Source of the DNA: Litoreibacter roseus
Lineage (GTDB): Bacteria; Pseudomonadota; Alphaproteobacteria; Rhodobacterales; Rhodobacteraceae
DNA: 64,000 nt
Reading direction: 5' to 3'
NCBI RefSeq assembly: GCF_009811795.1
Contig: NZ_BLJE01000002.1
Coordinates: 744,001-808,000, forward strand
Position numbers and translations under genes: made by a program. Below, piece after piece: positions 10,998 to 45,380 of the stretch. Within the stretch, counting starts at the first letter, position 1. Each line of letters begins with the position of its first letter. The notes beneath the pieces were generated by a model, which was given only the letters and a program-made list of their open reading frames with translations, made no database searches and was not told the origin of the DNA.

Positions 10998-11002
10998 TAT
11001 TT
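10998..11002. repeat. 5-bp target-site duplication, left copy
   Basis: TATTT directly before the left terminal TGT of the Tn7-like element; the identical TATTT follows the right terminal ACA at 45376-45380. Five bases is the duplication size of the Tn7 superfamily. Confidence 0.9.
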
Positions 11003-11080
11003 TGTGCCGTCCGGCATGAATCGCAACTTGTCCGGCGAGAAACGCGACTTTTGTCGGGTAAGAACGCAACTTCGGTCAAA
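11003..11080. repeat. Transposon left (tRNA-proximal) end with three closely packed TnsB-like sites
   Basis: After the terminal repeat, three related segments follow at about 21-22 bp steps: CGCAACTTGTCCGG (11022-11035), CGCGACTTTTGTCGGG (11043-11058) and CGCAACTTCGGTCAAA (11065-11080). Matching segments occur inverted in the other end. The tight array resembles the right end of Tn7, which is also the target-proximal end. The following bases to 11345 hold no gene I can support; one dispersed 13-mer (11198-11210) lies there. Confidence 0.85.
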
Positions 11081-11345
11081 TTTGAAGGATTTTAGAGCCA
11101 TTTGCTCTCGGAACTGGCTTTCAGGTTCGTTTGCAAAATTGCCCCTGCACAAGGCTATCTGGTCCCTCGTGGATTCGGCACCCATCGGGCGGAAAGCGGT
11201 CGTTCGCTGCAGGTTCAAAGGGCGCTCGTGGGGACTTCGAAAACAGACATTCAGTCATTGCAAAAACTACTAGCGCCGGATTTCGGAGGAATACCAGCGC
11301 CGACATTCTTGCAACTCACGCTATAAGCACCAACGACCCATTTGC

Positions 11346-14039
11346 TTAAACCAACAGCCTGATCGCTTTGGCCACTTCGAGCCGAGACTGAATATTGCTA
11401 AAGTCTTCGGGACCGTCAGCGGGGGGCAAATGTTCGGACAGCGCCTCAAATTCAGCGTGGACTGATCGGCGGTTAACTATACCCTCCATACTCGCTCGTA
11501 GCACCGCCTTCTCGGCGCTATCAAAGCCCTCTTTGACGCTAACCGACAGTAGAGACAGAGAGATTGGGACTTCGCCTTCAAAGTATCCTTCATTGATCAT
11601 TGCTTGTGCAACCAGCGACGGCACACCAAACAAGTAGGACAGTTCTGGAACAACGTCTGAGACAAAATCGCGTGCACGTTCGCACGTTTTCAGCAGTGTT
11701 GGTTGGGTCCCTGCTGCGAGTTCAATTCCCCGCAATGCCTCTCCTGACATCCATAAATCGAGTAGCGGAAACAACTTCGCGCAGATGAACTGCCCTTTGG
11801 CATGTTCGTCTTCAAGTGCTTTGTAGGGAGAGCCAAGAAAACTATCGAGCGTTTCACTTCTTATCAGCTTGGGTAACTTGTCATTTTTTCCGGTCAACCA
11901 ATCAGCATACCAATTCCTCCAATCGACGACGCTTGCATCGCTTAACCAACCACCAGCGAACGCTTCCGCCAATTCACGGATAAAGCTAGGCATAAACCCG
12001 ATAGATGCTGACAGCCTGTCTTGCCATGCACTTGATTGATCAAGTGAGTCCATATCAGAGCGGACGCGGTGCACCGCGTCTATTCTGCTCCGAATCCAGT
12101 CAGAGTCACCGCCTTGACGCCGCTTATATGCCGCAAATGATCGGGCCACAATTTGGGAGGTTTTATCGGCAGATCCATCTTCATCGGTGGCACTCAGAGG
12201 CAAGCGACCTACAAGGTACTCAGTCATGGGGTCTTCCGCCGAGGACGTTTCGTGAATCCGGTCCAGCAGTGGCTCGAGTGGGTCTTCGATAGTCAAGCAT
12301 TGGTCGCTTTGCGAAAAAATCCCCCGAAGTTCGGTCCAGTAACTATTAATCCTGCTATTTTCATTGTCAAAGTCCACAACTTTACTCGGGACGACAATGA
12401 CAAAACCGTGCGATCGTTCTCCCGCGCGGCCCGCCCTACCAGCAGCATTTAGCAACTCGTGTGCTTCCAGTCGCGACATTTGTTCCGCATCAAGATCGAA
12501 CCGGCTATCTCCTCCGATGATCACAACGTCACCAGGCAGATTCATCCCTTGAGACAACGTTGAGGTCGCGATTAAAACGTTTAGCCCGTCTTTTCGTTTG
12601 AACAGGCTTTCGTGCAATGAGCGTTCAAAGTTTAGAAGGTGTCCATGATGGCAAGCACTGGAAGACTTGAGCGTATTTGTATCCTCATCGATGCAAATAT
12701 AGAGATGTTTGGCGTCGCCAAGTTCGTCTTTGGTCGCGTCGTAGTTTGCGCGTTCTGTCTCGGTGAGAACGCAGCTTGCTCCAGTAAGATTGGCACATAT
12801 TTTTTTGTTTGCACTAATCGCCCATGGGATCGTTTGCAAAAAGACTATCGTTTTAAGACCCTTCTTAGAAATTTCTTCGGCCAGTTTCTGGGATACCTGC
12901 ACACCGTTTGGTGTCAGATACCAACGCGCAGTTTTATGCGGAGCTCCCTTTGGTAGAAATGACCCGACGGACAAGTTAACCTCCTCATCCAAAAGCTTCT
13001 GAAGGCTGTAGTCCTTCCTATCCGTCGTATTCCAAGTTTGGTTTAAACAAAAAAACGCATATGGCTCCGTTACCATTTTGCGTTTCGTAGACTGAGGAGC
13101 ACCTCTCGTATCATGGGCTTGTCTATCGGCTCGAAGCCTTTCATTGAGCCCTTGGATTTCGGCACCAGAATACACCACACATCCCCTCACCTGTCTTGTA
13201 GGCTTCCAAAGCAAATCTAGCGGAATACATGGCCGGTTAGTCAAATCTTGAATCCAAGATGAAATTTCTTCGCTGTTCTTCATCATAGCAGAGAGAAATA
13301 GGAGATCTGCGTTAGGGGCAGAAATCGACAAGTTGAGAATACACATCATAGCATCGACCGCGCGACGGCTTTTGTCTTCGCTGCGGGGATGCAAGAGATG
13401 ACATTCGTCGAAAACGACAAGTTCTACTTCCGCGAATAGTTCCGGCGCGAAGTTCAGAAACGCCAGGCAGCGTTCTGGCGTAACAACTGAAATGGCAGGA
13501 AGCTCTTGGTCATCAACGTCTACGACCAAATCTGCGGTTTTTTCTCGAAAGACTTCGACATCGGGGAATGCTTCTCCGAGTGCTCGAGTCGTTTGGTCCA
13601 CAAGAGCTAGTGTCGGGGCCAGAAATACGACTTTCTTGCCTCGGAGAACTGCTGTAGCGATTTTGAGCTCCGCCAACGTTGATTTGCCTGCGCCGGTGGG
13701 AAAACTGACTGATGAAGACGTCCCTAGGTCGAGATATCCTTTGGTCAGAGCCTGCCGATGATTGCGCCAAAGAAATGGTCTCCGCTTTGCGAAAGATCGC
13801 ATTTGGCTTAACCAAACCGTTCCATCGATGCCTGTTGGTGGAGGAACGTTCACAATCCCAATATCCAAAAAATCCCCAAAAGCTGCTTGCAGCAGGGTCG
13901 CGAGGTGCAAAGGTCCCGGGTAGACACTGTAGTGGATTGAGCCATCCGATGAAAAATTATGGACCGCTGGTTCAGCGCAAAGCTCTTGGACCCGTTGTAG
14001 AGTTGCTATCGGATCAAGCTCGGACGGTGGTGTTTCCAT
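11346..14039 (-). CDS. hamB: Hachiman-type HamB helicase, C-terminal part (gene split by an IS)
   Basis: These 897 residues are a Ski2-like superfamily 2 helicase. Seen: motif I PTGAGKS, Ia LAPTLAL, II DECH, III SAM, a C-terminal RecA half with TSTLSQGMNLPG, and motif VI AAGRAGRAG. In Hachiman, HamB loads on DNA and unwinds it while releasing or activating the HamA nuclease. The apparent ATG at 14039 is an internal Met: 12 bases upstream the frame runs into an IS, and removing the IS joins this frame to the 15527-14885 fragment without any stop, giving an ancestral protein of about 1115 aa. The remaining part keeps all helicase motifs but lacks the N-terminal 218 residues, so function is doubtful. 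Confidence 0.85.
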   Translation of the reverse strand: METPPSELDPIATLQRVQELCAEPAVHNFSSDGSIHYSVYPGPLHLATLLQAAFGDFLDIGIVNVPPPTGIDGTVWLSQMRSFAKRRPFLWRNHRQALTKGYLDLGTSSSVSFPTGAGKSTLAELKIATAVLRGKKVVFLAPTLALVDQTTRALGEAFPDVEVFREKTADLVVDVDDQELPAISVVTPERCLAFLNFAPELFAEVELVVFDECHLLHPRSEDKSRRAVDAMMCILNLSISAPNADLLFLSAMMKNSEEISSWIQDLTNRPCIPLDLLWKPTRQVRGCVVYSGAEIQGLNERLRADRQAHDTRGAPQSTKRKMVTEPYAFFCLNQTWNTTDRKDYSLQKLLDEEVNLSVGSFLPKGAPHKTARWYLTPNGVQVSQKLAEEISKKGLKTIVFLQTIPWAISANKKICANLTGASCVLTETERANYDATKDELGDAKHLYICIDEDTNTLKSSSACHHGHLLNFERSLHESLFKRKDGLNVLIATSTLSQGMNLPGDVVIIGGDSRFDLDAEQMSRLEAHELLNAAGRAGRAGERSHGFVIVVPSKVVDFDNENSRINSYWTELRGIFSQSDQCLTIEDPLEPLLDRIHETSSAEDPMTEYLVGRLPLSATDEDGSADKTSQIVARSFAAYKRRQGGDSDWIRSRIDAVHRVRSDMDSLDQSSAWQDRLSASIGFMPSFIRELAEAFAGGWLSDASVVDWRNWYADWLTGKNDKLPKLIRSETLDSFLGSPYKALEDEHAKGQFICAKLFPLLDLWMSGEALRGIELAAGTQPTLLKTCERARDFVSDVVPELSYLFGVPSLVAQAMINEGYFEGEVPISLSLLSVSVKEGFDSAEKAVLRASMEGIVNRRSVHAEFEALSEHLPPADGPEDFSNIQSRLEVAKAIRLLV

Positions 14040-14050
14040 TTCCTTATCTA

Positions 14051-14882
14051 GGGTCAGGACTCATAGCCAGTATATGACGAGTGCGGCAAGGGCGATGGCT
14101 GACAGAAAGACCTTCGGGCATCTATCGTATCGCGTTGCCACACGCCGCCAATCCTTCAACCTGCCGAACATGATCTCGATCCGGTTGCGTCGTTTGTAGC
14201 GCCGCTTGTCGTATTTCACGGTCTTCTTGCGTTGCTTTCGACCCGGGATACAGGGACGTATCCCTTTGTCTTTCAACGCTTCTCTGAACCAATCGGCATC
14301 ATAGCCTCTGTCGCCAAGTAGCCAATCGACCTCCGGCAGGCTGCTCAGCAACGCCCGGGCGCCAATGTAGTCACTGACTTGTCCGGCGGTGACGAACAAA
14401 TTCAGCGGTCGGCCCAGGCTGTCGCAGATGGCGTGTAGCTTCGTGTTCATGCCGCCCTTGGTGCGACCAATCAGACGACCACGCCCCCCTTTTTGACGCC
14501 CAAACTGGACGCCGTACGGTGTGCTTTGAGATAGGTCGCATCAATCATCACGGTCGTCTCCTCGCCGTGATCGGCTGCCAGTCCCATCATCATCTTTGCG
14601 AAGATGCCCTTATCGCTCCAGCGTTTCCAACGGTTATAAAGCGTCTTGTGCGGACCGTATTCCTTGGGCGCATCACGCCAGCGTAAGCCATTGCGATTGA
14701 TGAAGATAATCCCACTCAACACACGCCTATCATCGACGCGAGGCTTGCCGTGGGACTTCGGGAAGAAGGGCTCAAGGCGCGCCATCTGCGCATCCGTCAG
14801 CCAGAAAAGATCAGACATGTTCACCGCTCGTTTTTTGAACCGTGAATCATGCCGCCATGCGGAAATCAATGGGTCCTGACCC
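14051..14882 (-). mobile_element. IS5-family (IS427-group-like) insertion sequence inside hamB
   Basis: The element is 832 bp with terminal inverted repeats GGGTCAGGACTCAT / GGGTCAGGACCCAT (13 of 14 identical) and a 2-bp TA duplication (14049-14050 and 14883-14884). It encodes one transposase in two overlapping frames with a slippery run. Size, TA target and frameshift organisation fit the IS427 group of IS5. It is inserted in hamB. Confidence 0.92.
14061..14818 (-). CDS. IS5-family DDE transposase, two frames joined by a -1 frameshift
   Basis: The first frame (14818 to stop at 14471, 115 aa) has the DUF4096-like N-terminal helix-turn-helix region and the first catalytic Asp in MIDATYLKAH. 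The second (ending 14061; first Met at 14450) has the second Asp in LLGDRGYD and the Glu in RNRIEIMFGRLKDWRR. A slippery A5G6 tract (minus strand, 14494-14484) lies in the overlap, and the arithmetic of the two frames requires a -1 slip, giving a 252-residue transposase. All DDE residues are present, so the IS could be active. Confidence 0.9.
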
Positions 14883-15527
14883 TAACATCCTAGCAGCCAT
14901 ACTGATCATCGCTTCCAGGATTTTTTGATACAGTGCGCGCACGGCGGCGTCTTGGCCCGCTGTTCCGAGGATTTGACTGGGTGTTAGGAGCTCAATTCGA
15001 AGCAACGCTGATAAATCACCGGTCGCGAACGACTTAATCGCATGAAGTAGCTTGCTCTCTAGCGGCTCCTTGCCGTCCAATTGGATCAGTTTGGATACCT
15101 CCGCAGCATCTGCGCTTGCCTCAGCACAAAGAAAAAGAATGGTGGCCGAAACGTCTGACGAAATACCTTCAAAGCTAAGGTGGCTCTGTCGCGCGCGCGA
15201 TGTAAGTAAGTTCTCAGCCAGCAAGCATGCATGGTGGGCTGAAGCCGCCACAAACGCTGCAGCGGCCCGATTCTCTCTTTCAATGGACGATGCAACAAAT
15301 GCTTCTTGGGTAAACGCGAGACGGCGCATTCTCTGAATTACCTCAGGCAGTTCAATCTCGGCTGCTTCATCTTCTTGGAGTTCCCGCATACGAATTCTAC
15401 TGGAAACGATCTCTGCGTAGGCTTCTGTGATAGTTTGAGATATACGTTCGCTCTCAAGCCCTTCCAGTTCGGGGGCTTGGTTCATTAGGTTTACGGATTC
15501 CGGATCAAACATTAGCCAAGGCTCCAC
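14847..15527 (-). CDS. hamB: HamB N-terminal fragment, truncated by the IS
   Basis: The frame gives 226 residues, but only the first 214 belong to the original gene; the last dozen are encoded by the IS end. It is an alpha-helical, Glu/Ala-rich domain with no motif I recognise. Its start overlaps the end of hamA by 23 bp. Its codon frame continues exactly into the helicase frame across the IS (Leu-Asp-Lys-Glu-Met at the joint), which shows that this is the N-terminal domain of HamB and not a separate gene. Some annotation would call it a hypothetical protein. Confidence 0.82.
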   Translation of the reverse strand: MEPWLMFDPESVNLMNQAPELEGLESERISQTITEAYAEIVSSRIRMRELQEDEAAEIELPEVIQRMRRLAFTQEAFVASSIERENRAAAAFVAASAHHACLLAENLLTSRARQSHLSFEGISSDVSATILFLCAEASADAAEVSKLIQLDGKEPLESKLLHAIKSFATGDLSALLRIELLTPSQILGTAGQDAAVRALYQKILEAMISMAARMLGSGPIDFRMAA

Positions 15528-16302
15528 TAGATATTTGCGATTTTGCTTTCTCCGCGAGCGACGCTAACCAAGTTCTGATGTCATCTTGGTGGAAGGTCTC
15601 CGCTCTTCGTCTGTTCAAATCGCCAGGAACAACGCTGTCATATCCCTTAAACAGTCTTTTTCGTCCTTTGTCGTTTGAATGGGTTGCGCTGACAGTTATG
15701 GACAGCCGATAACGTCTTGCTTCCTTCCACAAAACCTCCTTGATGGCCTCATCAGAATTCAAACTTGTTTCTGTCCTGATTACAGCAAGAACTTGGGCAG
15801 TGAAAAAAGTGAATCTAAGACCCTCTTCCAGTTCACGGAATTCTTTCCAGACGCCTTCGTCTTCCCGCGTGATCATGTTTCGAGGATTTGTTGTTGCCTT
15901 ATCTTCAAAAACAACGGCGCATTTCACACGACCAGTAGCATCATCAATCTCAATCTGGAGCCCATCAAAGCCTTTGTCTGCGTGCTGCATGTGCGGCGCA
16001 GCAAGTCGTGCTGAAGGATCTGCTCGAATGGCAGCAATCCAAGAAATCGCTTGAAACAGCCATCCATCGCGATGCGACGAGTCATCTCCATCGACGGTCA
16101 GAAGTTGAATGGCGGAGGCCACACCGTCTGCGGGGTAATCAGCATCATAGATGCCAGTTCCTTCGAGAATTTTCCGAACATGATGGGAGTACCCCAACGC
16201 TATAACCGCGATTTGGCGGGCTAGCTCTTCCTCATCCACGACCTGCCATGCGTTCCCAAAGAAACAGCCTTCTTCGGTAAATGGTGTGAGAGTAATTGGC
16301 AT
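15505..16302 (-). CDS. hamA: Hachiman-type HamA nuclease (DUF1837 family)
   Basis: A 265-residue protein with the DUF1837 layout: DGLQIEI around Asp113 and FEDKAT giving Glu133-x-Lys135, the PD-(D/E)XK catalytic pattern. In Hachiman systems HamA is a DNA nuclease held in check by HamB and released when the helicase meets phage-derived DNA structures. The gene order hamA-hamB with overlap is the standard one. The Hachiman assignment is by motif and neighbour, without a profile search. With hamB interrupted, HamA might be orphaned, which matters because free HamA can be toxic. Confidence 0.82.
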   Translation of the reverse strand: MPITLTPFTEEGCFFGNAWQVVDEEELARQIAVIALGYSHHVRKILEGTGIYDADYPADGVASAIQLLTVDGDDSSHRDGWLFQAISWIAAIRADPSARLAAPHMQHADKGFDGLQIEIDDATGRVKCAVVFEDKATTNPRNMITREDEGVWKEFRELEEGLRFTFFTAQVLAVIRTETSLNSDEAIKEVLWKEARRYRLSITVSATHSNDKGRKRLFKGYDSVVPGDLNRRRAETFHQDDIRTWLASLAEKAKSQISSGALANV

Positions 16303-16466
16303 TAGCAGATCCTAAGTAATACGTTTGAAGAAATCAGTTTTTTTGCCAATAGTACGGGTCCTAAACGTTGTCCCGGCTCAGCTTTTAGTCTGGAGGTTAG
16401 GGCCGCCTGTGCGACACTCAGAACACGTCACCTCTGTGATGCTGCGCCACAGTGGATGTCATTAAC

Positions 16467-16814
16467 CTACACTGAAGCCGCTATTTGCTTTGCATGAGAT
16501 CTGGAAAAAAGCGAGCCATTCACAGGCATCGCGCCGCGCGAGAAATCCAATAGAATAATGTCTTTTTGGTACTTTCTAGCGGTTTCCAGCTCAAACTGAA
16601 CCCAAGGAGATGCAGAAAATGCAGGGGATCTTAGACCCAAGAACAGGTCGCAATTCGCGATTTCCAGCTCGATCCTTTTCTGAACATCGGGCCAGTCGTT
16701 ATGAAACAAGTCAACGAATGGTCGAGTGGAGACCGGCAGGCTGTCCAACAACTCTCGAAGTGACAGTTCATCAATAAGCCCGTCGCGCGTTGAATAACAA
16801 ATGAACAGCTTCAT
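16467..16814 (-). CDS. TIR-domain protein
   Basis: A 115-residue, single-domain TIR protein. Seen: the opening strand MKLFICYSTRDG, the BB-loop area, CDLFLGLRSPAFSASPWV (the S-x-x-S-x-W box) and Glu75 in WVQFELE, the position of the NADase catalytic Glu. TIR proteins in defence make or destroy NAD-derived molecules. The start at 16814 is chosen because its ATG overlaps the upstream gene's TGA (ATGA). Whether it makes a signal or directly depletes NAD cannot be told. Confidence 0.82.
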   Translation of the reverse strand: MKLFICYSTRDGLIDELSLRELLDSLPVSTRPFVDLFHNDWPDVQKRIELEIANCDLFLGLRSPAFSASPWVQFELETARKYQKDIILLDFSRGAMPVNGSLFSRSHAKQIAASV

Positions 16815-17239
16815 CTGAAAGTCAGCCACAGCACGAAGATCACGGCAAGTAAGACGGAATACAACGCCATCGATCTATTGAAAATTGCTGCCCACATAGT
16901 TGGGGCTTCCAAGCTAGCTTCGGTTTCTGCACCGTTTCGCTCTGCGATCTTGTTGAGTTTTGATGTCATCGTTCGCCTCAGAGAGCGCTGATAGAAATAT
17001 GCAGTAGCGTCTGCGAACCAGAACCCTAGGCAAACGAGTCCACACACCGCAAAAACGAACTGCAAATTGTCTGCAGACCCGAACCGTACCATGAGTGCGA
17101 TCACCCCTGCCACAACCGCGACGCAGAGCTTTTTATACTCAAAGCAGTCGTTACTTATCTTTAGAGTCGCATCGTGCAACTGATCGACAATTTTCCAATC
17201 GATTTCGTCGCTAGTCTTTGCGGCTTGGTCATCTGGCAT
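16811..17239 (-). CDS. Small three-helix membrane protein paired with TIR
   Basis: A 142-residue protein with membrane helices at about 40-56, 61-82 and 122-141, a charged cytoplasmic N-terminus and a basic middle. It precedes the TIR gene with a 4-bp overlap and has AAGGTGA as ribosome binding site. The pairing suggests an effector/sensor couple, the membrane protein being a possible pore-forming partner as in SLATT-type effectors; that is inference and no family is recognised. Confidence 0.72.
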   Translation of the reverse strand: MPDDQAAKTSDEIDWKIVDQLHDATLKISNDCFEYKKLCVAVVAGVIALMVRFGSADNLQFVFAVCGLVCLGFWFADATAYFYQRSLRRTMTSKLNKIAERNGAETEASLEAPTMWAAIFNRSMALYSVLLAVIFVLWLTFR

Positions 17240-18035
17240 ACGGTCACCTTCCTACGTTCTCCTTGCTTACCTTAAAGCACTTGATGCAACTGCCAATACA
17301 GATCGCACACAAATCCATGTAGGGGCGTGGATCGTGCCAGTTGCAATCAGGTCATAGACTTACCGATGTAAACCGCAGCTTGGCCTTGCCCGCCTCGGCA
17401 GTCGCGCAAATGTTGATAGAGCAGCGAACGGCCGGTTCGGGAAAGCTGCGCTGAAGCATCAGATGACCGACCAAGGTCCGGTTTGGGCCGTGCACGACAG
17501 TCAGGAGATTTGTCGTCGTGCACAATTCTGCGCGGCCTCCGATGACCGTATCGACCCCATATCTACAAAGCCGTACGCAAACGGAATGGCGGTTTTGTTC
17601 GGTCCGGACATAATGTAGCTGCGTATTCCGATAACCTACAGCACCCATCGCGAGTATGATTCAGCACCACATACAGAAATGTGCAACACGTAACAGCATA
17701 GCAAAGGCGGGAGGCGCAGAGACCTCAAATATCGCAGCGCGTCCCGCCTTTGCGGTCGAAAGTGTGATGCTGGTCAATCATTGAGGCGAGAGTGACTGCT
17801 TCATTCAGCATATCCGAAGTGGACGGCCAAGAGTCGACCTCCACCCGTACTCTTTGATGCTGTGGCGCGGCCCGTGTGACCGGTCATTCGCTGCGGTTGC
17901 AAAAGCTTGGACCGGTTGGACTCACAAACTGTGGACATAAAAGACATTTGCTGCAGCTGCGCCAACGCCTGCTTTCGATGTCCGTGCAATAACGGTAGAT
18001 TTCTCCAGTTGCAAAGAAGGATAAGTAGAAAAATG
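17240..18035. other. 796-bp spacer with no supported gene
   Basis: No open frame here shows recognisable protein features. It carries two copies of a dispersed intergenic 13-mer, GGCCGTTCGCTGC inverted at 17421-17433 and GGTCATTCGCTGC at 17882-17894, in what look like decayed repeat remnants. Confidence 0.5.
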
Positions 18036-19595
18036 CTAGTTCTTGGGAGCGCTCAGTGAAACTGATTGCAGTCTAAATCCGCCTCCGTCCGCGTGTTCAT
18101 CAAAATAGAAAGCCACGCTCCATGCTTGCGTATCCGGGTCTAAGGTGACCAAGTCATAACAAAGCGGTGTGGCTTCCACCCCAGTTGTCGATCCACAACC
18201 TACTACGAGTATTCCATCATCTGTCCAAGCCTGCCGTGGGGAATGTTTGTGTCCGTGCAAAATCAGAGAAACGTCACGATTTTCGCACCACCGATTAAAC
18301 GCCTCATTGTCCTCAAAAGCTACGAACTGATCAGCCGGAAAAATGCTCTGCACCACGCGTTGATAGAGCGCAGTGGCTTCCGGTTCCTCGTCAAATGGTA
18401 GCGGGTGATGATGCACAAGTGCAATCCGAGTATATTCGGCACACTCAGGACTTTTTTGAATTAGCGCATCGATCTGAGAAGCAACCGCGAGGCGTTGATT
18501 TTGCGACACACGCCCTCTTGCAAAACTACCCTCCTCACATGAGTCAAAACAAAGAAAGATCGCTTTCATATCGTGATCAACGACGGTTGGCTGCCAAAGA
18601 TTTGAAAACGCTTTGTAGCTTTCGCCAAGCTTGCCAAAACGATTTCCGCTTGATCGAACATCATGATTTCCAGGGACCAGAATGATGTTATCTTTGGTGA
18701 ATAGTTCCAAATCCGAACGAAAGTCGTCAAACTCCGTTCTGAGTTCAGATGTCGGATTGTCAAAAACATCACCAGTCAGCACAACGCGATCTACCTTTTT
18801 GCATACAGAACGAAGTGCTCCTTTAAGGTATTGCCTCTTGGCGGTTACTTGTTTGTTGCCCAAATGCAAATCGCTCAGGTGAAGGACGGTCTTGCGGCTC
18901 TTTTCTGACCTCTTTTTTCGTATTGCTGAAAAAAGGCGTCCAAACATGCCCTTTGGGTTCTCAAAAATCGGTTGTAGTGTTGTGAAGTAAAACTCAATGC
19001 CTTCTTCAAGTCCAAGTGTAACGGCTTCACTTACTGGTAGAGGCCGCATTCCCTTCAGATATGGCATCGCGATCTCTTTAGGTGTCCAGAATGTGACAGA
19101 GGGATACTCTGTGGGCATACGTGACAGAGCTGACGCTGCGGAGAGTGGGTCGAGGAAATTGAGGTTCTCTGAAAATCCTTGCGGCTTGAGAAAAAGACCA
19201 TGAGGTCCAGATGCTCTAGCGGCTTCATGAAAAAACTTGGTCGCTTCATGTTCTCCAGTTTGGTCATCTTGCGAAACTAAAAGTAACGAAAAAAGCGCAA
19301 AACCTGAAAAGTGCTCACGAAATGGCTTCAACAACAGGGTACATCTTTGATCTGGTAAGGGACTGTCGGGAAGACGCTCAAGCGCCTCGATTACTTTCAG
19401 TGCAGTTGATTGTATACCCGACTGCCATTCTCCGTCCAAGCCGGAGATTAGGGTCTCTCGAGGATCACCGGTTGGTTCCGCCAACGAACGTACAAAGCTC
19501 AACACTTCTTTTTTAGTGCTTCGTGGTGGCTTTCCTTTCCGATCCAACACAAAGCTAACCAAATTTGTATGCTTCGCCTCAAATGCGTACCCCAT
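18036..19595 (-). CDS. Metallophosphoesterase with long unknown N-terminal domain
   Basis: A 519-residue protein. The C-terminal half is a calcineurin-like phosphoesterase with all five motifs: DLHLG (about 240), GDVFD, GNHD, HHHP and GHKH, coordinating two metals. It could hydrolyse nucleic acid ends, cyclic nucleotides or other phosphoesters. The first 230 residues form a separate domain I do not recognise, followed by a basic RKKRSEKSRK linker. It stands alone in the cargo, with spacers on both sides. Confidence 0.78.
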   Translation of the reverse strand: MGYAFEAKHTNLVSFVLDRKGKPPRSTKKEVLSFVRSLAEPTGDPRETLISGLDGEWQSGIQSTALKVIEALERLPDSPLPDQRCTLLLKPFREHFSGFALFSLLLVSQDDQTGEHEATKFFHEAARASGPHGLFLKPQGFSENLNFLDPLSAASALSRMPTEYPSVTFWTPKEIAMPYLKGMRPLPVSEAVTLGLEEGIEFYFTTLQPIFENPKGMFGRLFSAIRKKRSEKSRKTVLHLSDLHLGNKQVTAKRQYLKGALRSVCKKVDRVVLTGDVFDNPTSELRTEFDDFRSDLELFTKDNIILVPGNHDVRSSGNRFGKLGESYKAFSNLWQPTVVDHDMKAIFLCFDSCEEGSFARGRVSQNQRLAVASQIDALIQKSPECAEYTRIALVHHHPLPFDEEPEATALYQRVVQSIFPADQFVAFEDNEAFNRWCENRDVSLILHGHKHSPRQAWTDDGILVVGCGSTTGVEATPLCYDLVTLDPDTQAWSVAFYFDEHADGGGFRLQSVSLSAPKN

Positions 19596-19923
19596 TAAAA
19601 AATCCCTACCTAAATCAACTACTATTGGAAAACTTGGCTAGCTGCCGTGTCTTGATTAACACCTAAATCCCAGTGCAGGTCAACGAACGCAACCAACTGC
19701 ATGTGATCAGCGGCTTTGCTAGTTCTCCTGATCGGGGTACTTCGGGTTCGGGCTAGACCATCAAGTTAGCCGACATTCAATCATCGCGCCGCATAGGTCA
19801 AAATGGGCTCTTCGCGGCCATCGGATGCATCGCTGCATCGAGCCAAACAGGCGCGCTGCCATTAGCGAAGTGGACCGGCGCTGCACTGCGACTTCTTCAA
19901 AGCAGCCATTAAGAAATATAACG
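19596..19923. other. 328-bp spacer, nothing recognised
   Basis: No coding frame, RNA gene or clear hairpin was found. The text is AT-richer near the promoter side of the metallophosphoesterase gene. Confidence 0.4.
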
Positions 19924-36589: not shown

Positions 36590-36717
36590 CTCTCGGGAAT
36601 TGTTCATTTTCAGAGCTCGACTATGGTCAGCGGCTGTTCGCTGTGCCGGCTATTAACTCACAGAATGCGGACGAAGCTGCCTTTCGATTGGCGAATTCGA
36701 AGGTCTGCTCTCGAAAG

Positions 36718-37676: not shown

Positions 37677-37678
37677 GA

Positions 37679-37996
37679 TCAGTTCTTCTTTCTTTTCAAA
37701 AGCTCCGCGAAGGCATCGAGCTTCTTGTCCCAGAAGGCTTGGTATTTCGAGAGCCATCCTGCCACGCTCAGCAAAGGTTCGGCATCAACACTGTAAATGT
37801 TCTGACGCCCGTGCTTGTGGTGTGAAACCAGCCCCGCTTCGCGCAGGATTTGCAAGTGCTGCGAGACGGCGGGCTGCGAGATTGTGAGTCTGTCGCTCAA
37901 CTCTCCGACTGAACGGTCGCTTTCGAGCAGCAAATCCAGCAGCACGCGGCGGTTTTGATCTGCCAGTGCCCGAAAGACTTGGGTTTCCTTATCCAT
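37679..37996 (-). CDS. ArsR-family transcriptional regulator
   Basis: 105 residues with a winged helix-turn-helix: SVGELSDRLTISQPAVSQHLQILREAGLV is the DNA-reading region. No metal-binding Cys pair (ELCVCDL) is seen, so it belongs to the non-metal SRPBCC-linked type. It overlaps the upstream membrane-protein gene by 8 bp. Two palindromes before the operon are its likely operators. Confidence 0.9.
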   Translation of the reverse strand: MDKETQVFRALADQNRRVLLDLLLESDRSVGELSDRLTISQPAVSQHLQILREAGLVSHHKHGRQNIYSVDAEPLLSVAGWLSKYQAFWDKKLDAFAELLKRKKN

Positions 37997-38570
37997 ATGC
38001 CGTTCCCGCCAGTTTGCCGCCCTGCTTCCGGCTCAAGATGAAGGAGGCCGCAGTAGCAGCGATCGTCCAGCCGACAATCAGGTTCGCGCTTTCTCCAACA
38101 GCATAAGCTGGCGCGAGCCCCCACCAGTTTGAAAGAACACCGTAAGTGGCCACCGAGGCTGAAACCGCGCTAAGCGCAATGACTGACAGGCTGCGTCTCG
38201 GCCCAAGAGGGGCCAGCAAGATCAAGAGCGCGACAATCAGGGCAGCAACGACGGCCTGCGTCACCGCTTGCCGCGTCAGGTAGGCCGCACCGTCGTAATA
38301 GGCGATTGGCATTGAGGATATCCACGACACCGTGTTGTCCGTGAACAAGAGGCCCAAACGACCGGAAAACGCTTCGTCGAAAGCTGCTGTCCCGAGCGAT
38401 CCCGGTGCCTCGATCACCGGCGTGCGCAAATGAAACGCACCCAGATCAGGAGAAGTCTCAGTCGAAATGACATGCGCCGTGGACGGACCCCAAGGAAACA
38501 TCTGGGTAATCCCACCCCAGATGAAAAGGGTAAGGCCGGCGGCGGCGGTGGCGACGAGCGGCTTAAGCAT
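37989..38570 (-). CDS. Membrane protein of the ArsR operon
   Basis: 193 residues with hydrophobic helices at about 7-25, 103-122, 128-147 and 158-178 and a periplasmic loop after the first. It is the first gene of the operon, with GGAG seven bases before its ATG. Role unknown. Confidence 0.7.
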   Translation of the reverse strand: MLKPLVATAAAGLTLFIWGGITQMFPWGPSTAHVISTETSPDLGAFHLRTPVIEAPGSLGTAAFDEAFSGRLGLLFTDNTVSWISSMPIAYYDGAAYLTRQAVTQAVVAALIVALLILLAPLGPRRSLSVIALSAVSASVATYGVLSNWWGLAPAYAVGESANLIVGWTIAATAASFILSRKQGGKLAGTAYG

Positions 38571-38580
38571 TTCGAATCTC

Positions 38581-38626
38581 CATAAGCAGTTACTTATGGG
38601 ATTTAATACATAAGTGAATACCTATG
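38581..38626 (-). promoter_or_regulatory. Two operators upstream of the ArsR operon
   Basis: CATAAG-N6-CTTATG (38581-38598) and CATAAG-N6-CCTATG (38609-38626), repeated 28 bp apart just before the first gene. This fits dimeric ArsR repression. Confidence 0.72.
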
Positions 38627-38965
38627 AGTCAACATTTCTTCAATGGTCCTGAAGCATGCATTTTGCTTTTGCGAGCAGCAAAGCCGTCATTCGCTGCAAC
38701 TCAGACTTTTCGAAGGTATGGGCTCTTTTCCCTCTTTCGCCGCGCGCCGAACGAACGACTGGTTCTACTACCTATTGGCTCTGCCTACTCCCAAACTGAT
38801 GCTTTGCGTTTCAGTCAGATACGGAACTTGACCTCAGTCTAATCTAGGAGCTAGATGTTACCATATATTGTGTTCGAATATCCCTTTATGGGCATAGAGG
38901 CGCAATATGTGGTGCATTGATGCCATTTTAAGGGGTTGACATGCCGCCCGCACCGATTCAGCCTT
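38627..38965. other. Spacer between cargo and transposition genes
   Basis: No gene supported. It has a dispersed 13-mer copy CGTCATTCGCTGC (38685-38697) and, at 38936-38941, a TTGACA that could be the -35 of the HTH/tns promoter, although no good -10 lies at 17 bp. No second set of transposon-end repeats was found here. Confidence 0.45.
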
Positions 38966-38986
38966 CTACAAACTTCAGATTTGTAG
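38966..38986 (+). promoter_or_regulatory. Inverted-repeat operator before the HTH gene
   Basis: CTACAAA-N7-TTTGTAG is a perfect seven-base inverted repeat; its right arm touches the ribosome binding site TAGGAG of the HTH gene. It is placed for autorepression by the HTH protein. Confidence 0.65.
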
Positions 38987-38998
38987 GAGTGCGGTGCT

Positions 38999-39250
38999 GT
39001 GTCCGCGAACAATTCAAAGTTAGATCGGGAAAACCATGCCCGGATCCAGTACCTCTTGGCCCTGGCAGGCACGACGTTTTCGGGTGTCGCAGATAGACTG
39101 TCGATTTCACCCTCCGCAGTATGTTCAGCATCGCTGGGGAGGTATCGATCGGCGCGTGTCGAGCAGGAGATTTCTAGAATAGTCGGCTTGCCAGTGTCAG
39201 AAATCTGGCCAGGCCGAACTCCTTCGAAAAAGCAGGAGGACGCAGCATGA
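38999..39250 (+). CDS. Small helix-turn-helix regulator (Nlp/Ner-like) of the tns genes
   Basis: 83 residues with GTFSGVADRLSISPSAV as helix-turn-helix followed by GRYRSARVEQEISRIVGLPVSEIWPGR, the Ner/Nlp family ending also seen in Mu-like phage repressors. Start GTG 38999 is supported by TAGGAG nine bases upstream. It lies before tnsA in the same direction, so it is the likely transposition regulator. Confidence 0.78.
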   Translation: MSANNSKLDRENHARIQYLLALAGTTFSGVADRLSISPSAVCSASLGRYRSARVEQEISRIVGLPVSEIWPGRTPSKKQEDAA

Positions 39251-39268
39251 TCTAGATAGCATCTAGAT
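39250..39268. repeat. Two ATCTAGAT palindromes upstream of tnsA
   Basis: ATCTAGAT at 39250-39257 and again at 39261-39268, 11 bp apart (one helical turn), directly after the HTH gene and before tnsA. A possible regulator site. Confidence 0.5.
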
Positions 39269-39427
39269 GAATGAGCAAAGCCCAGCTGCTTCCGCAACCA
39301 GGCCCGCCTTGATACGCCTCATTCATCCCACCTCAAAATTCAAAAGTCAATGGGTCTGCTCTGGCAGTTAGACCCTTTGCAGCCACCAATCCGGCGTTTC
39401 AGCGACCGGCAACCAGGAAGTTATGTG

Positions 39428-40228
39428 ATGAATGCACTACTTGATCACGCAGTGATGGAGCCCGTTAAGATTCCGGCCATGGATTTGTCGGGTATGCCAG
39501 AGGCGTTCCAGCGGGCATATGGCCCGACCAAACCCTTTGAAAACGAATTTGGCGATCTGACGATGCCAGGCGTTACTCCCATCCCATATCAGGGCAACCG
39601 AAAGATTAATCCCCGCTCGCGAGGTGCATGTCGCATCTTTGCTACTTGGCTGGATTCAGTAGCCCACATACCTAGAATTTACGGTTTCGACAGCCAGGTA
39701 GAATATCACCACGGCGCGCTCACGCTGATCAATCCCAGTGTGGCGCAGGTGCAAGAGCAGTTTGGCCCCATTCCGTTCACTGGAGATGACGGCCGTCCCG
39801 CGAACCACTTTATTGATCTGTTGATTACGCAGCATGATGGGCGTCGTGTCGCGGTCGCCGTCAAACCTACAGAACGCCTCAAATCAGGAAGGTTTTTGCG
39901 GGAGCTGAATGCGCTGGAGAAAACCATGCCTTCCGGCACGGCCGACGAACTGGTTTTGGTCACAGAGAACTGCTTTTCACGTGCAGATGCGTTCAACGCA
40001 GTGATGTACCATCGGTTTGCTTTGTGCCCTGATCCGGCAGTAGATCAACGACTGCACGATGTCCTGAGCACAGTACCTGGTGATATTTCCATCTGCGACT
40101 TGGCCAAACTATGCCGTGCGGGTGGGCGTGCATTTCGCGTCATCGTTCGTGCGATTTTCGAGGGATCACTGCTGAAATTGAGCACTGGTCGCATTTCCCC
40201 TTTCACCGTGGTGCGGAGGCTGGAATGA
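39428..40228 (+). CDS. tnsA: TnsA-like transposon endonuclease
   Basis: 266 residues with a restriction-like catalytic set: Glu in QVEYH (about 91), Asp in FIDLL (about 128) and Lys in AVAVKP (about 146). TnsA cuts the 5' ends of the element so that, with TnsB, it moves by cut-and-paste. ATG 39428 is chosen for AGGAAG seven bases upstream. Its stop overlaps the tnsB start (ATGA). Confidence 0.87.
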   Translation: MNALLDHAVMEPVKIPAMDLSGMPEAFQRAYGPTKPFENEFGDLTMPGVTPIPYQGNRKINPRSRGACRIFATWLDSVAHIPRIYGFDSQVEYHHGALTLINPSVAQVQEQFGPIPFTGDDGRPANHFIDLLITQHDGRRVAVAVKPTERLKSGRFLRELNALEKTMPSGTADELVLVTENCFSRADAFNAVMYHRFALCPDPAVDQRLHDVLSTVPGDISICDLAKLCRAGGRAFRVIVRAIFEGSLLKLSTGRISPFTVVRRLE

Positions 40229-42429
40229 ACCAGAAGATCTATTTTAGCCAGTCTGATCAGTACGCAATCGACCACATACCGTACCATTTTGAGACAAGCG
40301 ATGAACACTCGGCATTCTTCCGTCGCGAAGATGGCTCCGGCGCAATCGAGAGATTTGGCTGGGACGACCTCAACCAAATCGTTGGCAGTGAACGATGGAG
40401 TTGTAAAAGGCGCTCGTTGACAGTTCCTGATGCCAAGCAGGCTCCAGATCTTTACACTTTCGTTTGGGAGCTTCCTTCAAGACAGCAAAAGATGTTGCTG
40501 CGGCGCTGGTTCTTCGTTTCCGCGCTACGAAAGCTCCACGCTGCCGGTGAGGTGAAGTTGACGCCGAGCAGCGTGGAAGCGAATTTCTATGCCATTCTCA
40601 AAGAAGCGACAAAGGAAAGTTTGGCGTTCGATGACCGGTTTGGCGTTCAGTACTTCTGCTCCAAAGACAACAGCCTACCCAGCACTGCAAAACCAGGGAC
40701 TATATTGAGATGGCAGCGGCTTGTAAAAAAATCTGGGGGTAGAATTGACAGCCTGATCGACAAACGGGGCAAGATCTCAAGGATTGACATAGATCCAGAA
40801 AGCTACCGCTTCATCATAGGGTGTCTACGCGAATACTTGTCCGAGGAAAGACACAGCGGCAACGCGATTGCCCAAAAAACCATAAGCGCGATCCGTCTTG
40901 AGAATGAAAAGCGTCGGAAAAGCGGTCAGGCCCCAATTAATGGCCGTTGTAGGTCGGCCTTACACGATTGGATCAGCAAATTTGGAGAATTCGAGATCGA
41001 TCTGGGTCGAAAGGGCAAAGTTTACACTAAAAGAAAGTACTCGGGCGTCGGGAAAACGGAGCGAGCGACACGACCTGGCCAAACATTTCAAGCAGATGAG
41101 TGGGAGGTAGATGCACGAACGCTCATTATGTCCGGGCCAATACGAGAAGGTCTCGAGCAAGAGACACTTGATGCGCTGCCACGCGGTCGGCGTTGGCTAT
41201 ATATCGTCATGGATGTCGCGACCCGCTACATTGTCGGGTTTGGCATTTCTGCAACCCAAAGCTCAGAGGCGGCGGTACGCGCGTTAGAAATGGCAACGCG
41301 TGACAAGGAGGACCTAGCACAAGCTGCTGGCTCAAAGTCAACTTGGCGTGGTTTTACATTTGAATGCTTGGACAACGACACTGGAGGCGGGTTCCTAGGC
41401 AAGACGACCCGGCGTGCTGTGGAAATGATTCAATCAGCGCAATTCTATGGCAAAGTTGGTGAACCCCAATTTCGGGGACCAGTTGAAAGGCTCTTTGGCA
41501 CTTTTTCGGTACGTGCCATGCCCTACATTCCGGCACAAACGTTTCGTAACCCACAAGTGCGCGGCGACTACGACACCGAAGCGAAGGTTGCACTCACTGA
41601 CGATCAGCTTGCCTTGATCTTTATTCGTTTCATTGTCGACGTTTATCATCAATCTGAACATGGAGGTCTGTTTGGAGAGACACCATCATCAGCGCTTGAA
41701 CGCCTTGAGGGAACTATTGGCACACCGCCAAAGCTAACTCCTAAAACGCGACGCAAAGCATTTGGAATCAGGCAGGAGCGAACCGTTACAGCCCGCGGCA
41801 TTCGTTTCCTTGGCATAGATTATGGTGGCAGCAACGAAACACTGCAAAGCATACGCAAGCGTCATGGAACGAACGAACTCGCATTCTATGTCGACCCTCA
41901 AAACCTTGGCACCATCAGCGTATGGGACGACGGAAATTGGCTTGAAGTCCGCTCAAGTATTGAAAACTTTGAGGGAATAAAGTTAACGGACTGGATTGAA
42001 ACCACCAGAATTCTCCGCTCTCGCTACTCTGCGCAAGCTGAATTAAAGGCGAGTGTGGTTTTTGACGGTCTCAATTACATGCGTGCGCGTGCAACTGAGG
42101 CACAGCGCATCATGGGTGTCTTACCCCAGATGCCGACGTCGGCAGACCTGCAAGGACTCGAACGTGAACTCCATTGGGGGCTCTCAGTAGTCGATGACAC
42201 ACCAACGGCCGTGCAAGACTTACCACCCGCGGAAAGCGGTATTGGCTACAAGATTGGCGAAATCTCACCTGCCCCAAATGCCCGTCAGCATCCCACCGGA
42301 GATGAGATGGCAGTCCCTTCATCCCCTCCTGCGGCCCAAACCGATCCGCATCAATACAGCCAGGGCTCCATAGTTAGTGATGAAGATGATGATGACGATA
42401 GCTGGTTTGAGGAGGCCATTAAGCCATGA
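40225..42429 (+). CDS. tnsB: TnsB-like DDE transposase
   Basis: 734 residues with a retroviral-integrase-type core: Asp in QADEWEVD (about 290), Asp in CLDNDTGGG (about 383), Glu in GPVERLFGTF (about 420), preceded by two helix-turn-helix regions and followed by a Mu-type beta-barrel and an acidic tail (DDDDDSWFE) that should contact TnsC. TnsB binds the end repeats and cuts the 3' ends. ATG 40225 overlaps the tnsA stop. Confidence 0.93.
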   Translation: MNQKIYFSQSDQYAIDHIPYHFETSDEHSAFFRREDGSGAIERFGWDDLNQIVGSERWSCKRRSLTVPDAKQAPDLYTFVWELPSRQQKMLLRRWFFVSALRKLHAAGEVKLTPSSVEANFYAILKEATKESLAFDDRFGVQYFCSKDNSLPSTAKPGTILRWQRLVKKSGGRIDSLIDKRGKISRIDIDPESYRFIIGCLREYLSEERHSGNAIAQKTISAIRLENEKRRKSGQAPINGRCRSALHDWISKFGEFEIDLGRKGKVYTKRKYSGVGKTERATRPGQTFQADEWEVDARTLIMSGPIREGLEQETLDALPRGRRWLYIVMDVATRYIVGFGISATQSSEAAVRALEMATRDKEDLAQAAGSKSTWRGFTFECLDNDTGGGFLGKTTRRAVEMIQSAQFYGKVGEPQFRGPVERLFGTFSVRAMPYIPAQTFRNPQVRGDYDTEAKVALTDDQLALIFIRFIVDVYHQSEHGGLFGETPSSALERLEGTIGTPPKLTPKTRRKAFGIRQERTVTARGIRFLGIDYGGSNETLQSIRKRHGTNELAFYVDPQNLGTISVWDDGNWLEVRSSIENFEGIKLTDWIETTRILRSRYSAQAELKASVVFDGLNYMRARATEAQRIMGVLPQMPTSADLQGLERELHWGLSVVDDTPTAVQDLPPAESGIGYKIGEISPAPNARQHPTGDEMAVPSSPPAAQTDPHQYSQGSIVSDEDDDDDSWFEEAIKP

Positions 42430-43370
42430 GTTTTGGACCAAAACATCCTGATGTTTATTCACGACATCAAAAACTAAGGCAGATTTTCATGGAAAACCCC
42501 GACGCAGAACGGATATTTCACGCTATCGGAGATGTCGTTGGTGAACATCGTGCGGCCGTCGATGCTGGCAGCGAAATGGAAGCGCGTGCGGTGGCGATTC
42601 TAGGGAACAGTGGAACGGGCAAGACAAAAAGCACCATCCATGGGCTAGAAAGGCTGGGCCTGAAGGATACGGTCGTTGGTGACAACCCCCGCTCATTCTT
42701 AGTGATCAAGTTGAAAGCAAAGGCTTCGTTACGAGGATTGTGCGCGGGCGCACTCACAGCATATGGATGGCCGGTAAACAAGCGCGACTCTGCCGAGGAA
42801 ATTTGGACCGAGGTAGACGGGTACATCCGCAAATTGCAAACCTCCGTCCTCGTATTCGACGAAATTCAGCATGTCAGATCGGCGGGTGCTGTCGACCGCG
42901 CCGACCTCAGGGACTTCCTCAAGTCCTTAGTGCAACCTGGTCAGAGCATCGTTATTCCGATTGTTGTCGGTACGCCTGATTTTCTTGAGGTCTTAAATTC
43001 GGATGACCAGCTCTTTCGCCGTTGTCGTCAGGTGCATACCCGAACACTTGAAACGGCGATTGATCTAGAGGTCGTCGCAAGAACGCTCAATCAGTATGCG
43101 AAAGCAGCAAACATTCAACTAACAAAGTCGGTTAAGAACCGTGAGTTTGCAGCGAGATTACTGCACGTATCAAAATATGCATTCGGTACAATGTGCGAGT
43201 ATTGCTGCGCAGGGATCAAGCAGGCGATGCTTGAAGACAGCACGGAACTCAAAATTCAACACTTTGAAGATACATATCGGCGGAACATAGATTGTGTCCC
43301 GGCACTGAACCCCTTTGTCGCCGCAGACTTCCAAAACATTCAAATCGGCGAAAAGACCGATTTTCGCTAA
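42426..43370 (+). CDS. tnsC: TnsC/TniB-like AAA+ ATPase
   Basis: 314 residues with Walker A GNSGTGKTKS (about 60-69) and Walker B VLVFDEIQHV (about 144). TnsC forms ATP-dependent filaments that connect the target-bound TniQ protein to TnsAB and impose target immunity. The start overlaps the tnsB stop by 4 bp. The length is shorter than Tn7 TnsC and closer to TniB-like proteins. Confidence 0.92.
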   Translation: MSFGPKHPDVYSRHQKLRQIFMENPDAERIFHAIGDVVGEHRAAVDAGSEMEARAVAILGNSGTGKTKSTIHGLERLGLKDTVVGDNPRSFLVIKLKAKASLRGLCAGALTAYGWPVNKRDSAEEIWTEVDGYIRKLQTSVLVFDEIQHVRSAGAVDRADLRDFLKSLVQPGQSIVIPIVVGTPDFLEVLNSDDQLFRRCRQVHTRTLETAIDLEVVARTLNQYAKAANIQLTKSVKNREFAARLLHVSKYAFGTMCEYCCAGIKQAMLEDSTELKIQHFEDTYRRNIDCVPALNPFVAADFQNIQIGEKTDFR

Positions 43371-43399
43371 CCCATAACCATCCAAAAACGAGCAGTAAC

Positions 43400-45196
43400 A
43401 TGATAGAAATTTTGCCGATCAGGCTAACGGCGTCAGCCGCTGAACCGGGATTCTCAATACTCGCCCGCAATACAGCCGCAAATGCGTCTCGCACAATAAA
43501 GGAGTTTTGCGCCGCGACTGGACTAAACAAGGCGTTGATCTGTGCTGGAGACCCGGAGCAACTGTGCGCACTGGCGAAATTGACGGGGTCAGACCCGGAG
43601 CACCTGCAAAGCAATAGCCCACGGCAGTTGGATAGAAAAACCTCCGTCATCAACGGCAACAAGCTGCTCACACGGTCATTGCGAAAAGCAGATTTGTCAA
43701 TTTGCCCTCAGTGTTGGTTGGAACAGCGCGAAACGCGTGGTTCCCAGTCCTATCAGCTTGCGTTGAACAGCGCCTGGCTTCCACGTTCCGTTCGGACCTG
43801 CATCCGTCATGATGTCTGGCTCATCGAACTGCCCTACAAGGACTACACGTCCTGTTACGACCACCTGTTGCGTTGCAAGCTGACATACGGTTGGCTTGGT
43901 AGCTTAGCTACTATACTAAAAAGGCAACCTTCCAGTAATTTTGAGCGCGCTGTACTGGGCCAAATCCTGCTCAACCAGCCGATATGCCCTTGGTTAGGCG
44001 AGATCCAAGTAGACGTACTCGAACGTTGGTGTCTGGGCCTTGGGCTTTTTTTGGAGACCGGTTCAGGTCGGCTCAACGACTTCGATGAACATGCGCAGTT
44101 TCAAATGATCGACGCTGGGTACGATGTGATGAAGTCAGGAAGGAACGCACTGCATGTCGCTGTCGACGTGGCGTTAGGCAAGCATGGTGTACGACTTGGC
44201 AAGACTTGGCTTTATAACTGGGCCATTCCAAGCCATTCTCCCCCTGAGCGCTCTGTGTTTCGCAGTCAAATGAAAGACATGTGCGACGCCCAAGGCGATT
44301 ATTGCTTGTACACAGTCGCCAGCGCCCCTCCCGTTTCCCGCACCGTCGATCTGCAGCTCAGGAAGCTCTCTCGTCTAACCGGCCGTTCAGTTTCGTGGAC
44401 TAGAAATGTGCTCATGACGGATGGTTACCTGCCAAGTAGCGGCATCCCAGCACAACGGCATGTCAACAGTCAGTTCTATTTCTGGCGGACTCATATCCTA
44501 CGCCTGCACAGTAGCCTGAAGACGAAGGCAGCGGCCAGTCGCTTGGGCCTTGGGGTGAAGGCCTTCGGTAGCCTTGTCCAAGATGGAATTCTGAGCCCTA
44601 TCAAATCTCAGGTTTACGTTAAGCCGAGGTTCGACACGGCCGATCTCGACACGCTAATGGCCAGAGTTCAGCGGCACGTGCATCCAAACCCCGCGTGCCG
44701 CTCCGCTGAATTCGCCTCCATCCCGAAAGCTTGTTTTGAGGTATCGTGCGCGACATCGACGGTCATAAATCTGCTGATGGACGGGCATTTGAAATCCGCC
44801 GCCTGGACGCACCAGGGCAAAGGACTTGCTGGGATCGTTATTTATCCGGTCGAGCTCAAATCAAAACTCGCGTCGTTTTCGAAAACTGGCCTGACTATCG
44901 AGGATTTGAGGGACAGGCTTGGTCTCCAATACACGCAAGTCAAAAAGCTGATCGCGCGCGATCTCTTGCTCGCATTCACGGGCCGAAAGAGCAGTACTGG
45001 CCGGAGGGCGGTACTTGTCGATCCGCCTGATCTCGCCGCTTTCTTGGATGATTTTCAAACCGTCAGGACAGCTGCTGCTCGGCTCGGCATCAGCGAAAAT
45101 GCCGTTCGAGCCGGAATTTCAAATGGTGGTATTGTGCGTGCACCTGAAGGTGACGGCCTGCCCATTTATCGCGCGGCCGTGATTCTCACCGTCTAA
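43400..45196 (+). CDS. tniQ: TniQ/TnsD-like target-selection protein
   Basis: 598 residues. The N-terminal TniQ domain has zinc ligands CPQC (about 101-105) and CIRH (about 134-137) and the SYQLALN helix; the C-terminal 350 residues carry several helix-turn-helix-like repeats (VRTAAARLGISENAV near the end) and should bind the target. The large size is like Tn7 TnsD (site-specific) rather than the short TniQ of CRISPR-associated elements. ATG 43400 follows tnsC by 29 bp. Confidence 0.9.
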   Translation: MIEILPIRLTASAAEPGFSILARNTAANASRTIKEFCAATGLNKALICAGDPEQLCALAKLTGSDPEHLQSNSPRQLDRKTSVINGNKLLTRSLRKADLSICPQCWLEQRETRGSQSYQLALNSAWLPRSVRTCIRHDVWLIELPYKDYTSCYDHLLRCKLTYGWLGSLATILKRQPSSNFERAVLGQILLNQPICPWLGEIQVDVLERWCLGLGLFLETGSGRLNDFDEHAQFQMIDAGYDVMKSGRNALHVAVDVALGKHGVRLGKTWLYNWAIPSHSPPERSVFRSQMKDMCDAQGDYCLYTVASAPPVSRTVDLQLRKLSRLTGRSVSWTRNVLMTDGYLPSSGIPAQRHVNSQFYFWRTHILRLHSSLKTKAAASRLGLGVKAFGSLVQDGILSPIKSQVYVKPRFDTADLDTLMARVQRHVHPNPACRSAEFASIPKACFEVSCATSTVINLLMDGHLKSAAWTHQGKGLAGIVIYPVELKSKLASFSKTGLTIEDLRDRLGLQYTQVKKLIARDLLLAFTGRKSSTGRRAVLVDPPDLAAFLDDFQTVRTAAARLGISENAVRAGISNGGIVRAPEGDGLPIYRAAVILTV

Positions 45197-45223
45197 CGCG
45201 GGTCAAAATGGCCGAATTTCTGC

Positions 45224-45244
45224 ACCGCCACTGGCGGTTTTTTT
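45224..45244 (+). terminator. Rho-independent terminator after tniQ
   Basis: ACCGCC-ACT-GGCGGT stem-loop followed by seven or more T residues, 28 bp after the tniQ stop and just inside the transposon end. Confidence 0.88.
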
Positions 45245-45256
45245 GTGCCTGCATCG

Positions 45257-45375
45257 CACCCAAGTTGCAGTCTTGCCCGGACAAAGTTGCATTTCTAAAT
45301 GGCCGCTAGAAAATTTACGCATTTACATCAAAGGCTTATAAATTCGCCAGACTCTAATTCACGCCGGACGCCACA
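45257..45375. repeat. Transposon right end with spaced TnsB-like sites
   Basis: Read inward from 45375 it starts TGTGGCGTCCGGCGTGAAT. Two inverted copies of the site seen at the other end lie at 45276-45291 (TGCAACTTTGTCCGGG on the minus strand) and 45257-45269 (TGCAACTTGGGTG), 85-120 bp from the tip. The spaced layout resembles Tn7's left end. Confidence 0.85.
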
Positions 45376-45380
45376 TATTT
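45376..45380. repeat. 5-bp target-site duplication, right copy
   Basis: TATTT directly after the terminal ACA; identical to 10998-11002. Confidence 0.9.

Follow-up and report, generated by a model that had tools for sequence, protein, structure and literature searches.

A Tn7-like transposon of roseobacters that probably homes to the tRNA-Gln(TTG) gene

The 64,000-nucleotide (nt) stretch of the Litoreibacter roseus genome analyzed here (hereafter, the window) encompasses a Tn7-like element of 34,373 bp (11003..45375) that is, very likely, an intact transposon of a small roseobacter clade, with a single large TniQ/TnsD protein homing to tRNA-Gln(TTG); we assign this reading a probability of roughly 0.85. 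That tRNA-Gln is the target, a point the first-pass annotation of the window had not named, is indicated by comparison of genome sequences. The result is a Tn7-like attachment site, tRNA-Gln(TTG), together with a selector model, precisely defined ends and five elements whose duplications match. Below, G numbers denote genomes, G000 being the 4.47-Mb genome that carries the element, and L numbers denote loci.

The ends lie, to the base, where the first-pass annotation had placed them: the target duplication TATTT is read at 10998..11002 and again at 45376..45380, and the inverted tips it had described start from 11003 on the plus strand (TGTGCCGTCCGGCATGAAT) and from 45375 on the minus strand (TGTGGCGTCCGGCGTGAAT). 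The pattern shared by both 19-nt tips, TGTGNCGTCCGGCNTGAAT, has two matches in the whole genome, one on each strand, and the backwards control has none. The internal repeats noted at both ends are present as 21-nt sites and come out on top with an independent matrix, built from 34 sites that occur in 13 further left ends, with the element itself left out: the three sites of the tRNA-side end (11009, 11030 and 11052, spanning 11009..11072 on the plus strand) and two of the far end (45262 and 45284, within 45262..45369 on the minus strand) take ranks 1-5 among the 127,960 scored positions of the window. The site at the right tip (45349) is weak, ranking 12th in the window by a matrix that includes the element's own sites. 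The arrangement recurs among the relatives, with a site at tip positions 7 and 28 in all 14 left ends and at position 50 in nine of these; in the five right ends, the best sites are at positions 7 and 72 in every case, some of them weak, and a clear site is at position 94 in three. We infer that TnsB binds the 21-nt sites at both ends. The element thus displays TGT/ACA tips, several TnsB-type sites at each end and a 5-bp duplication, as is typical of Tn7-like transposons, and its G+C content (53.3%) is below that of the flanks (58.2 and 57.7%). The tRNA-facing end is the one upstream of tnsA, which we take to be the same polarity as in Tn7.

The four transposition genes reported as intact are indeed all open in frame, match Pfam domains and sit at the right side of the element, all on the plus strand: tnsA (39350..40228; PF08722), tnsB (40225..42429; Mu-transpos_C), tnsC (42426..43370; TniB/AAA_22) and tniQ/tnsD (43400..45196; 598 amino acids; PF06527 and HTH_17), the proposed tRNA-Gln selector. 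The likelier start codons of tnsB and tniQ are at 40225 and 43400, and tnsA and tnsB are separate, overlapping open reading frames (ORFs) that are not fused. The Pfam scores are 63.6 (TniB) and 48.2 (AAA_22) bits for TnsC and 41.3 bits for TniQ; those of TnsA (27.0 bits, cut-off 26.5) and TnsB (22.6 bits, cut-off 21.7) are barely above the thresholds. TnsA is 71% identical to its counterpart in G218 and 61% to that in G257, and TnsB 59 and 51%, respectively. TnsB also matches PDB chains of TnsB (E-values down to 7.9e-32), and its candidate acidic residues, D291, D385 and E421, assigned by eye, are invariant in three sequences; TnsC matches VchTnsC and Tn7 TnsC. Sequence searches of PDB gave no match for TnsA and no credible match for TniQ, and a single-sequence search of the genome contigs with TnsC found no relative. 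A structural model of TniQ from 19 sequences (predicted local distance difference test (pLDDT) 85.5; a model from three sequences was discarded at pLDDT 41.2) is consistent with a TniQ/TnsD fold at residues 3-306, the TniQ/TnsD core, followed by a C-terminal row of modelled MerR/BldC-like winged helices. Together, the ends, the duplication and the machinery support the first-pass view of a complete Tn7-like element brought in by one insertion, and the tips recur in sister elements.

The tRNA-Gln(TTG) gene (ARAGORN, Rfam) occupies 10916..10990 on the plus strand, so that the tip starts after 12 nt behind the CCA. A search for the 34-nt left end, with up to three mismatches, in 394 genomes of the family and 21 of the genus (413 distinct) recovered it in six of the family set, five of the genus set and 10 distinct genomes overall, with no hits to the backwards pattern. 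In eight of the 10, the left end stands behind a whole tRNA-Gln(TTG), at 10, 11, 12, 12, 12, 13, 13 and 13 nt after the CCA, and in the other two, it adjoins a copy of the tRNA-Gln 3' tip or flank. In G297, the end follows, at a distance of 9 nt, a tRNA-Gln fragment of roughly the final 21 nt, the whole gene standing elsewhere, followed by the same ACCTCCTCT; the end in G294 is preceded by 17 nt resembling the tRNA tip and flank of G439, and the whole tRNA-Gln is 38 kb off, adjoining a serine-recombinase gene. Both elements were apparently pushed away from the tRNA by later integrations. Seven selected genomes, which are not an unbiased sample, were also searched starting from the tRNA and yielded three more ends, at 13, 12 and 12 nt (G437, G438 and G439).

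The 5-bp duplications match in all five close machinery-bearing elements found, and all differ from one another: TATTT in G000, TCAAT in G218, CTTGT in G257, TCTCG on both sides of the element on contig C5 of G439, and CCGAA in G438, a Roseovarius metagenome-assembled genome in which the left and right ends are on two contigs and probably belong to a single element. G218 has another left end directly adjoining its right duplication, with a best site score of 27.5, compared with a maximum of 13.6 for 2,000 random 200-mers; the site has apparently served as a target on two occasions. A similar fossil end in the right flank of G257, with a 3-mismatch tip, was rejected (best site-matrix score -1.6). 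That the association with tRNA-Gln reflects one ancient insertion kept by descent, and not repeated targeting, is highly improbable: all left ends are near-identical in sequence and adjoin the same gene, and ten of the left-end genomes belong to one bacterial family, but the duplications differ, the distances range from 9 to 13 nt, two ends stand in tandem in G218, the cargo differs between elements, and the six carriers among the 394 family genomes are scattered over six genera.

A clue to target recognition comes from the C5 element of G439. Its TniQ is 89% identical to that of G257, whose element sits at tRNA-Gln, and yet the C5 element interrupts an hsdM-like gene with N6-methylase and HsdR-N domains. 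When the flanks are closed over one copy of TCTCG, a single frame of 638 + 102 codons is restored, an indirect empty-site test. The sequence that precedes the tip aligns, in the same register, with a part of tRNA-Gln that spans the anticodon loop (TTTTTGG) through the T-arm (CGTAG.TT.GAATCCT); the aligned block stops 26 nt before the tip, compared with 22-26 nt in the 12 tRNA-side ends that hold this block. Of 300,000 87-mers drawn at random from some 70 kb of the G439 chromosome, with the real tRNA-Gln removed, none scored as well against the genome's own tRNA-Gln as the hsdM-like site, and 135 did so against the tRNA-Gln of G257, 15 of them in register; in earlier nulls with the real tRNA-Gln left in the background, 36 of 100,000 (ungapped) and 29 of 60,000 reached the observed score. 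When compared with the 18 distinct tRNA genes present in the retrieved sequences, the site scored 16-18 with the eight usual tRNA-Gln, 14 with tRNA-Lys and at most 12 with the other nine, including one diverged tRNA-Gln (11). The T-arm alone should not give specificity because GGTTCGAATCCT is common to other tRNAs. This insertion is probably a natural mis-targeting to a tRNA-Gln look-alike and, as such, offers a short sequence hypothesis of target recognition that can be tested. No relatives of the broken hsdM-like gene were found in plasmids.

On these grounds, we tentatively propose, at somewhat less than even odds, that recognition of a single tRNA gene by a TnsD-type selector relies on two DNA blocks lying apart, the anticodon loop and the T-arm, which are read by several MerR-like winged helices in a row. 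The T-arm, common to many tRNAs, would serve as a ruler and the anticodon-loop side would give the identity of the tRNA, so that the hsdM-like insertion would be a natural record of this code; if so, the tRNA target could change by swapping winged helices. It is rather unlikely that recognition by TniQ is confined to the acceptor end of the tRNA gene or the sequence directly 3' of it, with the hsdM resemblance due to chance. The end in G297 adjoins only about the last 21 nt of a tRNA, and the hsdM-like case is single, both of which fit such recognition; the whole tRNA-Gln of G297, however, stands elsewhere, before the same flanking sequence, which fits a later integration between them, the hsdM-like alignment ends at the T-arm, short of the acceptor end, and the flanks after the CCA differ among carriers.

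Several observations temper the reading of an intact element that homes to tRNA-Gln. No clean empty site for this copy was found among the genus genomes: the left flank is matched in 20 of the 21 and, in the 18 other genomes whose match extends as far as the end of the tRNA, it breaks off there or no more than 2 nt away, and the right flank is matched in only two of the 20 others, G306 (1.6 kb, at a contig start) and G297 (105 bp). Besides those of G306, no right-flank proteins were found behind tRNA-Gln in 16 stretches, except for one gene at 27-29% identity in two; secY stands elsewhere. G437, which belongs to the genus of G257, was rejected as an empty site given that it has a left end of its own, with no recognised right end. 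None of the seven further left-end genomes tested carries a close tnsB: in G231, G294 and G307, there is only a distant one (28-35% identity), on other contigs or far away, no credible right end is found within 58-59 kb behind the left ends of these three and G312, and the ends in G297, G306 and G385 meet contig ends within 0.3, 0.3 and 13 kb. Most known ends are therefore remnants, unfinished contigs or mini-elements moved in trans. Tips with three mismatches downstream of the left ends in G312, G307 and G294 have no TnsB-like sites behind them (best score 0.7) and were read as chance. Finally, the mis-targeting is a single event, and the edges of the motif were drawn after seeing it.

The shortage of machinery and recognisable right ends among the related left ends, an insertion sequence within the cargo and an Ala in the predicted TnsA motif would also be compatible with a dead relic, complete in outline but immobile, which we regard as doubtful. 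All four genes are open, and both ends and the duplication are intact. The Ala, at a position where the TnsA of Escherichia coli has Gln, is common to the five close elements (two distant ones have Met), four of which have an exact duplication of their own, so that it did not stop their insertion. Close tnsB genes were seen only in Rhodobacteraceae (four close and five distant loci in a species-wide pattern scan, the nine records all carrying that name or the name of one of its genera), and a TnsB alignment search of 385 genomes of the class at E 1e-90 returned the own genome only.

A mechanism consistent with these observations would begin with TnsB binding the site arrays at both ends. Judging from the one mis-targeted sister and the structural model, TniQ would then bind the tRNA gene as DNA via its C-terminal winged helices, with contacts at the anticodon-loop block TTTTTGG and the T-arm block CGTAGGTTCGAATCCT; by analogy with Tn7, its core would recruit TnsC, which would bring TnsAB. 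Comparison of the ends shows that the tRNA-side end is joined 22-26 nt past the T-arm block and 9-13 nt after the CCA, and that the sequence of the 5-bp duplication is not fixed. The tRNA would be left whole and the site available for another insertion, as suggested by the two ends in tandem in G218.

The element is best read as a variant of the known tRNA-targeting Tn7-like kind, with TnsABC and one TnsD-type selector: it encodes a Tn7-like TnsA, a DDE/Mu-type TnsB, a TnsC AAA+ ATPase and TniQ/TnsD, and has neither the TnsA-TnsB fusion of the I-B2/I-D branch nor the lack of TnsA seen in the Tn5053 family. Insertion at tRNA genes under the direction of TnsD has been described both for Tn7-like elements and for the I-B2 and I-D CRISPR-associated transposons (CASTs) (PMC10293859, PMC8649781, PMC11406308). 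Tn7 with TnsD likewise combines TnsA, TnsB, TnsC and a TniQ-domain DNA-binding selector, with a 5-bp duplication at a set distance beside a conserved gene (PMC11406308, PMC8649781). Tn7 differs in its attachment site, which is glmS and not tRNA-Gln; in addition, no TnsE was found here among the element ORFs scanned, the C-terminal part of the selector is modelled as MerR-like winged helices, and the cargo lies between the tRNA-side end and tnsA. In the I-B2/I-D CASTs (PmcCAST, McCAST and CyCAST), a TnsD/TniQ protein similarly directs insertion behind a tRNA gene, but these have Cas genes, a second small TniQ and a fused TnsAB, whereas no Cas gene stood out here among the ORFs scanned; CyCAST inserts 30-33 nt past tRNA-Leu (PMC10293859, PMC8649781, PMC11406308), compared with 9-13 nt past the CCA here. 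The Tn5053/Tn402 family shares the TniB-family TnsC and the single TniQ but has no TnsA and uses plasmid resolution sites, in contrast to the TnsA and the tRNA site here. A literature search found no mention of tRNA-Gln(TTG) as a Tn7-like attachment site, with spellings such as tRNAGln and most subscription papers outside its reach, so that this target may already be in print.

The machinery is common to the sister elements and the cargo is different. We propose that the defence genes located between the two ends are moved along with the element as its cargo, one route by which such genes come to stand behind tRNA-Gln in roseobacters. From the tRNA side, the cargo includes a HamB-like DEAD helicase (11346..14039, minus; Pfam DEAD, PADLOC HamB1 2.2e-36), an IS4/IS5-type insertion sequence of two ORFs (14061..14869, minus), a calcineurin-like phosphoesterase (18036..19595, minus), homologues of MzaB, MzaC, MzaD and MzaE (21131..28570, plus), an AbiEi/AbiEii pair (28849..30349, plus), a cytosine-5 DNA methylase (30343..31899, minus), and a Vsr endonuclease with an HNH protein (31961..33446, plus), as well as a TIR-like ORF below its Pfam cut-off. 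MzaA had no match among the ten proteins run through PADLOC. No Cas families were found by Pfam among 30 window proteins, a set that leaves out small ORFs and CRISPR arrays; a single weak PADLOC match to Cas3b falls inside the DEAD helicase. Among selected ORFs of the sisters, G218 has PD-Lambda-4_A and a TIR-like protein, G257 a NACHT protein, and G439 DndC-like and UvrD-like proteins.

Elsewhere in the genus, tRNA-Gln is directly followed by different DNA (L041, L044, L048, L051 and others). Similar GTGCCCCAAGGAATGCCCC stretches occur in several of these cases, which might mean that further integrating elements use this site. Distantly related TniQ or TnsB genes of roseobacters are located close to tRNA-Arg genes (L009, L012 and L126) and perhaps belong to sister families with another tRNA target. 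A tRNA or decayed tRNA-like sequences are located ~160-190 bp inside the left end of some sisters (L067, 1662-1736; L132, about 1700-1775; L004, about 655-730 on the minus strand): a tRNA-Lys in G385 and decayed look-alikes, recognised by eye and not by Rfam, in G438 and the fossil end of G218. A DUF6634 gene, not found in this window, is divergent from tnsA in three sisters (L025, 2581-3039; L034, the 4773-5228 region of G257; contig C5 of G439, 218323-218754), as identified by Pfam in G218 and by eye in the other two. The own genome also carries a second, distant Tn7-like set (TnsB, TnsC and TniQ; 21-27% identity) on contig C11 (18847-24630; L037, L038). Outside the element, a match to the alpha-operon ribosome-binding site, barely over the Rfam threshold (38.8 compared with 38), lies at 61307-61426 of the window, in a ribosomal-protein region.
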